Of a DNA stretch of 38,135 nt, positions 5,001-29,829 are shown piece by piece; within the stretch, counting starts at the first letter, position 1; each line of letters begins with the position of its first letter. The stretch lies in NCBI GenBank assembly GCA_937919085.1, contig CALFRN010000522.1:1-38135 (forward strand), written 5' to 3'. The notes beneath the pieces were generated by a model. The model had not been told where the DNA came from. It searched no databases and saw only the letters and a program-made list of their open reading frames with translations. A program made the position numbers and the translations under genes. The DNA is from an uncultured Reyranella sp. GTDB lineage: Bacteria; Pseudomonadota; Alphaproteobacteria; Reyranellales; Reyranellaceae.

Positions 5001-6033
5001 CGGCGGCGGCGCGCAATTCGTCCGTCTTGCAGGGCTGAAGCGATACTTCGACGTCTCGGCGCCATGGCTGGTGCGGAAGATCGAAGGCAGGCCACGCCAG
5101 ATCGTCCAGGCGGTCGACGGCATCGACATCGAGATCGCCAGGGGCGAGACCTTCTCGCTGGTCGGCGAGTCAGGTTGTGGCAAGTCGACGGTCGCGCGCC
5201 TGGTCGTCGGTCTTTATCCGCCGACCGCCGGCACGATCGAGTTCGACGGCAACGACATGGCCGGCCGGCGCAGCCGATCGGATATGGCGGCACTCCGCCG
5301 GCGCATGCAGATGATCTTCCAGGACCCGTACGCCAGCCTCAATCCGCGCTGGCGCGTGTTCGATATCGTTGCAGAGCCGATCCGTGCCTTTGGCCTTTCG
5401 ACGGACAAGGCCGACCTGCAGAAGCGCGTCGAGGACCTGTTGCGCCAGGTGAAGCTGACGCCGGCCGACGGCCGCAAGTTTCCGCACGAGTTTTCGGGCG
5501 GTCAGCGCCAGCGCGTCTCGATCGCCCGGGCGCTTGCCAGCCAGCCGGAATTCCTGGTGTGCGACGAGCCGACCTCGGCGCTCGACGTGTCGGTCCAGGC
5601 GCAGATCCTGAACCTGATGGTCGACCTGCAGCGCCGCTTCGGCCTCACCTACCTGTTCATCTCGCACAACCTCGCAGTCGTCTATCACATCTCGACGCGC
5701 GTCGGGGTGATGTACCTAGGCCGCCTGGTCGAAGTGGCGCCCACCGAGACGCTCTTCACTCGGCCCAAGCATCCCTACACGCGGATGCTGCTCGACACGA
5801 TTCCCGACCTCGACATGACCGGCCGCCAGCGCAGCCCCGTTGCAGGCGAGGTGCCGAGCCCGCTCAACCCGCCGTTCGGCTGCACCTTCCATCCGCGCTG
5901 CCCCTTTGCCAACGACCGCTGCAAGACCGAGCGGCCGAAGGCGCTTTCGATCGAGGGGGGCACCGTGAGCTGCCACGCGATCGAAGAGGGGCGCCTGGCG
6001 GTCGACGAGCGGAGCTACACGGCCAACAGCTGA
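4993..6033 (+). CDS. peptide-type ABC transporter ATP-binding protein, DppF-like
   Basis: Second ATPase, 346 residues from ATG 4993, which overlaps the end of the DppD-like gene. The start gives MPDGGGAQFVRLAGLKRYFD, the usual DppF opening. Motifs in order: Walker A GESGCGKST, Q-loop MIFQDPYASLNPRW, signature SGGQRQRVSIARAL, Walker B FLVCDEPTSALD, and switch His in FISHNLAVV. The tail contains the cysteine cluster FGCTFHPRCPF..RC..C as in its partner. With the binding protein and two permeases this completes an importer; all five subunits are present and intact. A 115-base gap with a candidate promoter separates it from the M20 gene. Confidence 0.95.
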   Translation: MPDGGGAQFVRLAGLKRYFDVSAPWLVRKIEGRPRQIVQAVDGIDIEIARGETFSLVGESGCGKSTVARLVVGLYPPTAGTIEFDGNDMAGRRSRSDMAALRRRMQMIFQDPYASLNPRWRVFDIVAEPIRAFGLSTDKADLQKRVEDLLRQVKLTPADGRKFPHEFSGGQRQRVSIARALASQPEFLVCDEPTSALDVSVQAQILNLMVDLQRRFGLTYLFISHNLAVVYHISTRVGVMYLGRLVEVAPTETLFTRPKHPYTRMLLDTIPDLDMTGRQRSPVAGEVPSPLNPPFGCTFHPRCPFANDRCKTERPKALSIEGGTVSCHAIEEGRLAVDERSYTANS

Positions 6034-6060
6034 CGGCGCGGCGCTTTTCCTGGCCAGGCC

Positions 6061-6084
6061 GTGATGTGCGTAGGCGCATATCAC
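6061..6084. promoter_or_regulatory. operator-like inverted repeat upstream of the M20 gene
   Basis: GTGATGTGCG at 6061-6070 and CGCATATCAC at 6075-6084 are inverted copies that match at 9 of 10 positions, separated by 4 bases. The dyad ends 6 bases before a good -35 element (TTGACC, 6091). That position fits an activator or upstream repressor site. No regulator gene lies nearby, so the binding protein is unknown. Confidence 0.4.
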
Positions 6085-6090
6085 GTGCGC

Positions 6091-6118
6091 TTGACCCATG
6101 GCGGTGCTCCCGTACGAT
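6091..6118 (+). promoter_or_regulatory. candidate sigma-70 promoter for the M20 amidohydrolase
   Basis: TTGACC at 6091-6096 and TACGAT at 6113-6118 are separated by 16 bases. Transcription would begin near 6125 and leave a leader of about 24 bases before the ATG at 6149. If real, the hydrolase can be transcribed independently of the ABC importer. Confidence 0.45.
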
Positions 6119-6148
6119 CCGCGCTCTGAATTTTATGGAGATTCCCGG

Positions 6149-7342
6149 ATGCCGGTCATTAACCGCATTGCCTCGTTTCACAAGGACATGACCGCCTGGC
6201 GGCATGACATCCACAGCCATCCGGAAACAGCTTTCGAAGAAGTGCGCACGGCCGACGTCGTTGCCGAGAAGCTGAAGTCGTTCGGTCTTGAAGTTCATCG
6301 CGGCCTGGCCAAGACTGGCGTGGTGGGCGTGCTGCGCGCGGGCACGTCGAAGCGGGCGATCGGGCTGCGTGCCGACATGGACGCGCTCGATGTCCACGAG
6401 ACCAACCAGTTCGACCACAAATCTACGATCCCGGGCAAGATGCACGCCTGCGGCCATGACGGTCACACCGTGATGCTGCTGGGGGCCGCGAAATACCTGT
6501 CCGAAACGAAGAACTTCGACGGCACGGTCTACTTCATCTTCCAGCCGGCCGAGGAAAACGAAGGCGGCGGGCGCGTCATGGTGGAAGAGGGACTGTTCGA
6601 AAAGTTCCCAGTCGAAGGCGTCTACGGCATGCATAACATTCCGGGTATTCCGGTCGGTAAGTTTGCCGTTCGGCCCGGCCCGATGATGGCCGCCTACGAT
6701 ATCTTCGAAGTCGTGGTGAAGGGTGTCGGCGCTCACGGCGCCATGCCGCATCACGGCATTGACCCGGTTGTGGTCGGTGCGCACATCGTGACGGCACTGC
6801 AGTCGATCGTGGCACGTAACGTCGATCCGATGGACACCGCCGTGGTCTCCACGACGCAGATTCATGCTGGCGACACCTGGAACGTGATCCCGCAGGAATG
6901 CGTGCTGCGCGGCACGGTCCGCACTTTCAAGAAGCCGGTGCAGGACATGATCGAGAAGCAGATCGAGAAGATCGCCCGCAACGTCGCAGCCGGGTTCGGC
7001 GCCGAAGTCGCCAAGTGGCGCTACGAGCGGCGCTATCCCGCCACCGTGAACAGCGTCCAGGAGACCGAGTTTGCCGCCCACGCAGCATCGGCGCTGGTCG
7101 GTCTCGACAACGTCAATCGCAATCCGACGCCCGCCATGGGCAGTGAGGATTTTGCTTGGATGCTTCTCAAGCGGCCGGGTTGCTATATCTGGATCGGCAA
7201 TGGCGACGGCGAAGGCAGTTGCATGGTCCACAATCCGGGCTACGACTTCAACGACGAGATCCTGCCGATCGGGGCCTCGTACTGGGCAACCCTGGTCGAG
7301 CAGCAGCTTGCCCGTGAGGCCGTGTCGCGGGCGGCGGACTAG
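6149..7342 (+). CDS. M20-family amidohydrolase (hippurate hydrolase / N-acyl-amino-acid hydrolase type)
   Basis: Cytoplasmic metal-dependent amidohydrolase, 397 residues, the usual length for HipO/AmaA-like enzymes, which split N-acyl amino acids into acid and amino acid. The ATG at 6149 has GGAG 8 bases upstream; an earlier in-frame ATG at 6098 lacks one and would start inside the promoter. Metal-site residues are visible: MHACGHDGH at 98-106 (Cys101, His103), the Glu pair in FQPAEE near 135-136, His162 in YGMHNIPG, and the C-terminal GSEDFAWML and MVHNPGYDFND segments. It lies just downstream of a complete peptide importer on the same strand, so the imported ligand may be an acylated amino acid or peptide. 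The exact substrate is not readable from sequence. Confidence 0.9.
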   Translation: MPVINRIASFHKDMTAWRHDIHSHPETAFEEVRTADVVAEKLKSFGLEVHRGLAKTGVVGVLRAGTSKRAIGLRADMDALDVHETNQFDHKSTIPGKMHACGHDGHTVMLLGAAKYLSETKNFDGTVYFIFQPAEENEGGGRVMVEEGLFEKFPVEGVYGMHNIPGIPVGKFAVRPGPMMAAYDIFEVVVKGVGAHGAMPHHGIDPVVVGAHIVTALQSIVARNVDPMDTAVVSTTQIHAGDTWNVIPQECVLRGTVRTFKKPVQDMIEKQIEKIARNVAAGFGAEVAKWRYERRYPATVNSVQETEFAAHAASALVGLDNVNRNPTPAMGSEDFAWMLLKRPGCYIWIGNGDGEGSCMVHNPGYDFNDEILPIGASYWATLVEQQLAREAVSRAAD

Positions 7343-24030: not shown

Positions 24031-24984
24031 TCAGATCTTTTCGATCACCGCCGCCCTGAAGCGGCGCATCTCCGCGATCACCGCGGCGGCGGCGGGGCGG
24101 CCGAAATCGATGTCGATCGCCGTGACACCAATGTCATGCAAGGCACGGAAGTCGCCGATCAGATCGGCTTCGCTGCCGGAGAACAGCCGCCGCTCGCCGT
24201 TCGAGGCGACAGGTGGAACTGCCGCGCCATAGCGTTTCACGCGATAGGCGACACCTACCGAGGCAGGATCGCGCCCGGCCTCGGCTGTCGCCTTGCGCAG
24301 ACGGGCGATGCCTGCCTCAAGACGCGGCAGCGTGTCGAGCAGGTGCTTGTTGATGCTGCCAATCGAACACCAGGCATTACCGACGCGGGCGGCGCGGCGC
24401 AGGGAGGGACCGCTTTCGCCTCCGATCCAGATTGGCGGATGCGGCCGCTGGATGGGTTTGGGTTCGAGCACGATCCCGTCGAACTTCGTGTAGCGGCCGG
24501 CGAAGCGGGGAGCGTGTCCGGTCCACAGCACGCGGAACGCATCGATATATTCGTCGGACACCGCTCCGCGCTCGGCGAACGGCGTCGTCACGACGGCGTC
24601 TAACTCTGCTTTCAACCAGCCGGCACCGACGCCCACGACCAGCCGGGCTCCCGACAATACATCAAGCGTGGCGAGCATCTTGGCGGCGAGCACGGCGGGG
24701 CGATGCGGTACGACCAGGACCGCGGCCACGAGGCGGATGCGCGTGGTCTTGGCTACGACATAGGCCATGCCGAGCAGTTGCTCATGCCGCTCGGTCGGTG
24801 CGTCTTCGTAGAATTCACCGCTTTCGCAGTATGGATAGCCGGGAACCTTCATGTCCGGCAGCACGACGTGATCGGTCATGGTGAGATAGTCGAAGCCCAT
24901 CGCCTAACCTTGATAGGCGATCTCCGTCATGGCGGCGACGGCGTCAAGCGGGCCGGAGTTCGGAAGGTTGAAACCGATCTGCAT
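24031..24984 (-). pseudogene. LLM-class flavin oxidoreductase interrupted by an in-frame amber codon
   Basis: The minus strand encodes a luciferase-like monooxygenase-fold oxidoreductase of the TIGR03619-like (F420- or FMN-dependent) type. Codons from ATG 24984 read MQIGFNLPNSGPLDAVAAMT and EIAYQG, then TAG (24906-24904). The same frame continues AMGFDYLTMTDHVVLPD to the stop at 24031, 317 codons in all. The first 26 residues are the family's first beta strand and helix, and EAMGF would be expected, so GAG to TAG is the simplest explanation. An ATG at 24900 directly follows the stop and leaves a 289-residue frame, but it would lack the first barrel strand. The rest is well conserved (SGARLVVGVGAGWLKAE, PHPPIWIGGES). 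It is convergent with the D-aminoacylase and divergent from the monooxygenase at 25141. Confidence 0.75.
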
Positions 24985-25140: not shown

Positions 25141-26322
25141 ATGGATACCCGCGTCAAGACGGCGGCTGAAAGCGCGCCGGAACGGGCTCGTGCCCTGCAG
25201 CCTTTGCTGGACGAACACGGCGCCGAGATGGACCGCCGCCGCGAACTCACGCCTGAGGTTGTCGAGGCCCTGGTCGACCGGGACATGCTGCGTCTGCTCC
25301 TGCCCAAAAACCTCGGCGGCCAGGAAATCCACCTTCTGGAGTACTGCAAGACCACCGAGGCGCTCGCCTGGGCGGATGCCAGCGTCGGCTGGTTCATCAA
25401 CCAGTCCAACGTCTCGTCCGCAACGTCTGCCGCCGCCATGCCGCATGCGGCGGCGGCCCTGGTGTTCGGCAATGCCAGCGAAGGGCTCGCCTGGGGCGCG
25501 CGGCACAGCAAGAGCAAGGCCATCCGTGTCGAGGGCGGCTATCGCCTCAGCGGCACCTGGAGCTTCGCCAGCGGCGGACGCCACACCCGATGGCTTGGCG
25601 CCCATAGTGCAGTCCAGAATCCGGACGGCGCGCCACACGTGCGCTATGGACGGGCGGACGATCGCAGCTTCTTGTTTCTGCGCAGTGACGCCGCGATCAC
25701 GGACGACTGGCATGTTCTTGGCCTCAGAGGCACCGGCAGCGACACCTATACGGTCGAGGATCTGTTCGTGCCGGACGACCGCGCGCCGGCGCGCGATGCG
25801 CAGGACGAGCGGCGGGAGAACGGGCCGATCTACACGATCATGTCCACTCTGCTTTATGCCAGCGGCTTTTGTGGTGTGACGTTGGGCATCGCGCGGCGGT
25901 TGTTCGAATCCTATGTCGAGCTTGCCCGTGGCCGGCACTCCCGGGCGTCGGCCAATGCAATGGCCGTCAACAATGCGGTGCAGCGCGAGATCGGGCTCTT
26001 GGAAGCGAAGCTCTCCGCTGCTCGTGCGTTCCTGCACGAAGCGGCCGGTGAGGTCTATGAAGCAGCAGCGGCAGGCAAGTTGGATGTAAACCTGCGGCTG
26101 CGGCTTAGACTTGCCACCACTTACGGCATGAACGAAGCAACCGATGTGGCGATCGCGTCCTACCGCGCCGCCGGGACATTGGCGATGATGAATTCAGGCC
26201 CCTTCGAGCGCCGCTTCCGCGACGCCATGAGTGCCAGCCAGCATCTGCAGGCGATGATGCCACACATCGAAATGGTCGGCCGCCACATCATCGGCACCGA
26301 CAATGTGATCCAGCATATTTGA
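25141..26322 (+). CDS. acyl-CoA dehydrogenase-fold flavin monooxygenase (HpaB/DszC-like, group D)
   Basis: Flavoprotein of 393 residues; GAGGA lies 8 bases before the ATG. The N-terminal helical domain (LTPEVVEALVDRDMLRLLLP, then KNLGGQEI), the central beta domain (YRLSGTWSFASGGRHTRWLG near 140, GLRGTGSDTYTVEDLFVPDD near 200) and the C-terminal helical domain fit the acyl-CoA dehydrogenase fold. The acyl-CoA dehydrogenase catalytic Glu is not evident, and the SGTWSFASG and GTGSDTY motifs are those of group D two-component monooxygenases that hydroxylate aromatics or oxidise sulfur heterocycles using reduced flavin. A flavin reductase is not encoded nearby. It is divergent from the amber-interrupted LLM gene and convergent (6 bases) with the ACMSD-like gene. 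Confidence 0.82.
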   Translation: MDTRVKTAAESAPERARALQPLLDEHGAEMDRRRELTPEVVEALVDRDMLRLLLPKNLGGQEIHLLEYCKTTEALAWADASVGWFINQSNVSSATSAAAMPHAAAALVFGNASEGLAWGARHSKSKAIRVEGGYRLSGTWSFASGGRHTRWLGAHSAVQNPDGAPHVRYGRADDRSFLFLRSDAAITDDWHVLGLRGTGSDTYTVEDLFVPDDRAPARDAQDERRENGPIYTIMSTLLYASGFCGVTLGIARRLFESYVELARGRHSRASANAMAVNNAVQREIGLLEAKLSAARAFLHEAAGEVYEAAAAGKLDVNLRLRLRLATTYGMNEATDVAIASYRAAGTLAMMNSGPFERRFRDAMSASQHLQAMMPHIEMVGRHIIGTDNVIQHI

Positions 26323-28938: not shown

Positions 28939-28974
28939 GTCCGTTAGTCGATTCACATGGCAAAGGAGCCTTCT

Positions 28975-29829
28975 ATGTTGCTGAACGCCCTCTTCCCGAC
29001 GCGCGATATAGGCACCGACCCGACAAAGATCCGGGACTGGGCACAGGCAGCGGAAGGCCTCGGCTACCACTGCATCGAAGTCGCCGACCATGTTTTCGGG
29101 GCGGCACCGCGCGGCGATTGGAAACCGACTTACAGCGAGAACGATCCCTTCCACGAAACCTTCACGACGATGGCCTTCCTCGCTGCCGTCACCAAGACGA
29201 TCCAGTTGTGCAGCGGGGTGCTCATTCTGCCGCAGCGGCAGACCGGGGTCGTCGCCAAGCAGGCGGCCGAGGTTGATATCCTGAGCGGCGGGCGGCTGCG
29301 CCTCGGTGTCGGCGTCGGCTGGAACCACGTCGAATACGAGGCACTCGGGACCGAATGGAAGACGCGCGGCGCGCGCCAGGCCGAACAGATCGAGGTGATG
29401 CGGCGCTTGTGGACTGAGGATCTGGTCACATTTTCCGGCAGGTTTCACAATCTGGTCGACGTCAACCTGTTGCCCGTCCCGGTGCAGCGCCCGATCCCGA
29501 TCTGGTTTGGTGGATCCTCGGACGCAGTCGTCAAGCGGGCTGCCCGGATCGGTGATGGCTGGATGCCGATCATGACACCCGAGGTGGCCGAGCCAAAGCT
29601 GGCGATGCTGCGCGAGCATATGAAGTCATTCGGACGGGATCCCGCCACCTTCGGGCTCGAGGGGTGGCTGCGCATGGACGAGGCCGATCCGCAGCTATGG
29701 GCCGCCGCGGCGCACGGCTGGAAGCGCCTCGGCGCCCAGATGGTGATGCTCTACCCCATGTACCGGATGCCGAACCTCAATCAGCAGATCGGGACCCTGC
29801 GTCGCTTCAAGGAAGTGATGGCTGGGTAG
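28975..29829 (+). CDS. LLM-class flavin-dependent oxidoreductase (TIGR03619-like)
   Basis: Luciferase-like barrel enzyme, 284 residues, F420- or FMN-dependent. AAAGGAG lies 7 bases before ATG 28975, which is preferred to ATG 28957, which has no site. It reads MLLNALFPTRDIG at its first strand, GLGYHCIEVADHVF near 30, AEVDILSGGRLRLGVGVGWN near 100, and RPIPIWFGGSSDAVVKRAAR near 175-190, all family features. The substrate is unknown. It is the intact counterpart of the amber-interrupted LLM gene 4 kb away, although the two are clearly different proteins. It is probably in one transcript with the lyase and convergent with the SDR gene (23 bases between stops). Confidence 0.88.
   Translation: MLLNALFPTRDIGTDPTKIRDWAQAAEGLGYHCIEVADHVFGAAPRGDWKPTYSENDPFHETFTTMAFLAAVTKTIQLCSGVLILPQRQTGVVAKQAAEVDILSGGRLRLGVGVGWNHVEYEALGTEWKTRGARQAEQIEVMRRLWTEDLVTFSGRFHNLVDVNLLPVPVQRPIPIWFGGSSDAVVKRAARIGDGWMPIMTPEVAEPKLAMLREHMKSFGRDPATFGLEGWLRMDEADPQLWAAAAHGWKRLGAQMVMLYPMYRMPNLNQQIGTLRRFKEVMAG

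Follow-up and report, generated by a model that had tools for sequence, protein, structure and literature searches.

A probable recent pseudogene of an LLM-class oxidoreductase with a single in-frame TAG in an uncultured Reyranella species

The window, that is, the whole stretch of 38,135 nucleotides analysed here, carries on its minus strand, from 24984 to 24031, a frame of 317 codons followed by a TGA stop. As seen in the assembled sequence, this frame (24031..24984) holds a sole inner stop, a TAG at codon 27 of 317 (24906-24904), and the codons from the stop onward read TAG GCG ATG. Translated with an X at the stop, the protein matches both the Bac_luciferase profile PF00296 (E=1.3e-38, 133.6 bits against a cut-off of 27.9) and the F420-dependent LLM profile TIGR03619 (220.5 bits against a cut-off of 166.9). 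An earlier, sequence-only reading had described an LLM-class enzyme frame opening at ATG 24984 and broken by a single TAG, and the frame and the two profiles bear this out. It had also placed an ATG directly after the TAG, which is mistaken, as a GCG codon intervenes. From that ATG, at 24900, a frame of 289 codons stays open (24031..24900, minus strand), the possible product of a restart.

The genes on either side are intact. Upstream and divergent lies an acyl-CoA dehydrogenase gene (25141..26322, plus strand), whose start is ca. 160 bases from that of the interrupted gene, while an amidohydrolase gene (PF07969; 22340..24013, plus strand), itself terminated by TAG, converges on the other end. 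A second LLM gene (28957-29829, plus strand; PF00296, E=2.5e-55) is found ca. 4 kb from the interrupted one and is uninterrupted. Along with this second LLM gene, TRAP-type transport, two amidohydrolases and a lyase are encoded in the surroundings, a gene content which suggests a catabolic region.

The interrupted gene resembles the F420-dependent LLM oxidoreductases of TIGR03619 in that its protein, with X at the stop, exceeds the family cut-off; it differs from members of TIGR03619 and PF00296 in its interruption at codon 27, and the cofactor and substrate of its orthologue group are putative. The structural model of the nearest orthologue (from genome G026) has LLM-superfamily folds as its top matches, among them SfnG, MsuD and the F420-dependent Mer. 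Production of F420 has been documented in Alphaproteobacteria (PMC8498797), and the window’s genome encodes both CofD and CofE, making the use of F420 by the enzyme of the intact orthologues plausible. The cofE and cofD genes adjoin each other (L148 and L160, contig C452, ca. 5033-6693) beside a run of LLM genes (C452:167-4911), which suggests a cluster for F420 biosynthesis and use in this alphaproteobacterium.

A structure predicted for the G026 orthologue (mean pLDDT 85.9) shows where the stop falls within the fold. In this model the first strand of the barrel spans residues 2-6 and the first helix residues 16-28. The TAG at codon 27 separates the strand and most of the helix from the remaining barrel, and no single unbroken frame of the window gene encodes the whole barrel with its strand 1 and helix 1. 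The prediction that a product restarted after the TAG would lose the first barrel strand was correct on this model.

The search for the gene covered 101 genomes, the window’s own and those of 100 relatives, and a wider genome collection. Approximately 110 matching loci were read, fewer independent sequences than loci since some records are common to both collections, and the alignment spans codon 27 in ca. 105 of them. Throughout these readable loci, the window excepted, codon 27 is GAG, GAA, GAC or GAT, and no stop occurs there in any homologue other than the window. Among 31 diverse family members Glu27 is invariant, and the nearest relative, G026, with 94.6% protein and 95% DNA identity, has GAG, so that one base change accounts for the TAG. 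The glutamate predicted for this site from family context was thus well chosen, as all aligned homologues carry Glu or Asp, and the comparison of the codon with orthologues of relatives, proposed at the same time, returned sense codons throughout. The disabling lesion is absent from orthologues, as would be expected of a pseudogene. A homologue in a Chloroflexi MAG (L053) also shows one inner stop in its tblastn alignment.

Comparison with orthologues also defines the start of the gene. They align from residue 1 with MQIGFNLPNSGPL, and ATG 24984 is therefore the orthologous start. A natural later start, at the ATG following the TAG, had been named as an observation that would overturn the reading of an interrupted gene, and it was rejected on this basis, as the orthologues begin at the equivalent of 24984. 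The conserved N-terminus encoded before ATG 24900 is kept by orthologues, which argues against a restart at this ATG, two codons past the TAG, yielding a shortened 289-residue protein with some function. The arrangement itself would permit such a restart, as the TAG ends 3 nt ahead of the ATG, the frame beyond is open, and an upstream AAGG pairs with the anti-Shine-Dalgarno sequence at -5.2 kcal/mol, compared with -2.9 at the native start. This pairing is, however, unremarkable, being matched at 28% of the ATGs on the minus strand of the window. A restarted product would also lack two elements of the predicted barrel, the strand at 2-6 and the helix at 16-28, and the part that it would retain holds most of the unusual changes described below.

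Up to 48 orthologues served to place each difference between the window and G026 on one of the two branches. The polarised counts are 13 amino-acid-changing to 16 silent changes on the window branch and 5 to 15 on the G026 branch. At columns invariant among the 48 orthologues the window branch carries 8 changes, or 7 without the stop, against 1 on the G026 branch; besides the stop these are S53C, A77V, G113A, T143S, Y206C, P207S and N211I. Fisher tests on such counts are borderline (changing to silent against the sister, p=0.13, and against the neighbouring gene, p=0.034; invariant columns, p=0.048). A codon likelihood branch model on 36 sequences, with the TAG treated as missing, puts omega at 0.194 for the window branch and at 0.057 for the background (2dlnL 7.46, p=0.0063); the p-values are approximate, since a nucleotide tree was used to scale all branch lengths but those of the two focal branches. 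Relaxed selection on the lineage bearing the lesion, a further mark of a pseudogene, is thus found. In the acyl-CoA dehydrogenase gene, the sole control with enough outgroups among neighbouring genes, most of which had too few, the same branch test detects no shift (p=0.62), and no lineage-specific relaxation is seen.

For the window branch, omega lies below 1 as well (p=0.01). Under a simple mixture, in which background constraint is followed by neutral evolution, the neutral share is ca. 15% of the window branch. A value below 1 is expected if only the final part of the branch was unconstrained, and weak remaining function fits equally well. A neutral phase of this length would be consistent with one nonsense change, the loss of several conserved residues and the lack of indels. 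That the gene has a single lesion and no indel also counts against a pseudogene.

These results bear directly on the view that the gene is intact and that its TAG arose from a single-base error in sequencing or assembly, or represents a minor variant among strains. The sequence comes from a draft genome of 525 contigs, the TAG is known from the assembly alone, and the lesion count is just one, all of which favour an error. With the TAG ignored, however, the dN/dS of the lineage is still raised, and seven substitutions stand at otherwise invariant columns. The neighbouring gene ca. 160 bases away shows no such excess, which makes a high local error rate unlikely, and inner stops are rare in the assembly, with one in ca. 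270 family matches. A lone sequencing error is a poor explanation because the lineage shows changes at invariant sites and a raised dN/dS while the adjacent gene is unshifted, and as the main account it was rejected, since the excess of amino acid changes persists with the stop masked. Its probability is considered very small, and that of a functional restart slightly smaller still.

Whether the stop could be decoded as an amino acid depends on the translation apparatus. None of the 36 tRNA matches typed in the draft genome has the anticodon CUA that would read UAG. Release factor 1, which would be expected to be missing or altered under UAG recoding, is present in the window’s genome, its prfA match scoring 515 bits, above the cut-off, and without an inner stop. 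Inner stops were counted in the genome across three families (50 LLM, 87 short-chain dehydrogenase and 134 ABC matches), and the one member that has any is the LLM gene at 24031..24984. TAG also serves as the terminator of 4 of 10 window genes around this gene; UAG is an ordinary terminator in this genome. Recoding by a dedicated tRNA was accordingly rejected on the tRNA set, release factor 1 and TAG usage, and the search for an amber suppressor and further in-frame TAGs, which the sequence-only reading had recommended, yielded neither among the 36 tRNAs and ca. 270 family matches. A tRNA-Sec (UCA), which reads UGA, lies at a contig end in the same genome (L159, locus 2-98), and selenoproteins with in-frame TGA may exist there.

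Readthrough by ordinary means, through near-cognate misreading or in a regulated manner, would give a little full-length enzyme. For bacterial genes with inner stops and dN/dS below 1 it has been widely proposed (Belinky et al., 2021; PMC7918605), and the window gene is similar to those cases in its single in-frame stop, its otherwise open frame and its branch omega below 1. In that work, the proposed cases are argued from conservation and a maintained low dN/dS, whereas the stop of the window is unique to one genome, conserved in no relative, and dN/dS is raised rather than maintained. The lack of a suppressor tRNA among the 36, the presence of release factor 1 and the normal termination of neighbouring genes at TAG also stand against readthrough, which is regarded as very improbable, slightly more so than a functional restart. 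That the TAG and ATG form a stop-restart switch giving a shortened LLM protein, or that a trace of readthrough enzyme is made, with a changed role in the species, is held to be about as improbable as a functional restart.

The changes at invariant columns, the raised dN/dS of the lineage and the decay of the gene elsewhere in the genus make a true pseudogene, of recent origin and from a known enzyme family, the strongly favoured explanation. A once functional LLM-family oxidoreductase gene, probably F420- or FMN-dependent, would have been recently inactivated in the lineage of the window. Selection on it would have slackened, codon 27, a GAG in the nearest relative, would have become a TAG that halts translation once 26 residues are made, and drift appears to have begun at other positions. 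From the comparison of sequences we infer this order of events and the loss of the product in the cell. Between the pseudogene, error and recoding left side by side by the sequence-only reading, the first is supported by a dN/dS shift confined to the lineage and by decay in the genus, while a lone error does not account for the amino acid changes around the stop, and recoding finds no support. The gene is like other recent bacterial pseudogenes with a single nonsense change in having one stop, a full frame, relaxation in one lineage and intact close relatives, and no difference in kind from these is apparent. It is most likely an ordinary young pseudogene, and nothing points to a special genetic code. 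Comparative data alone can go far towards settling an apparent case of recoding, with a toolkit of codon conservation, stop-masked branch dN/dS, a neighbour control, and tRNA and release-factor checks.

The gene has also decayed independently elsewhere in the genus. In the single-contig genome G016 the orthologue (L161, contig C1, locus 2539-2978) is frameshifted, 512 nt being deleted from its interior and one base inserted, and ten more genus members, some with incomplete genomes, gave no match to the gene at the DNA level. The window gene would add a further case in which a genus rich in the LLM family has lost a dispensable oxidoreductase; its loss may be tolerable because the window’s genome holds ca. 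50 LLM-family (PF00296) matches. In G015, of the same genus, only the last 45 nt of the gene remain.
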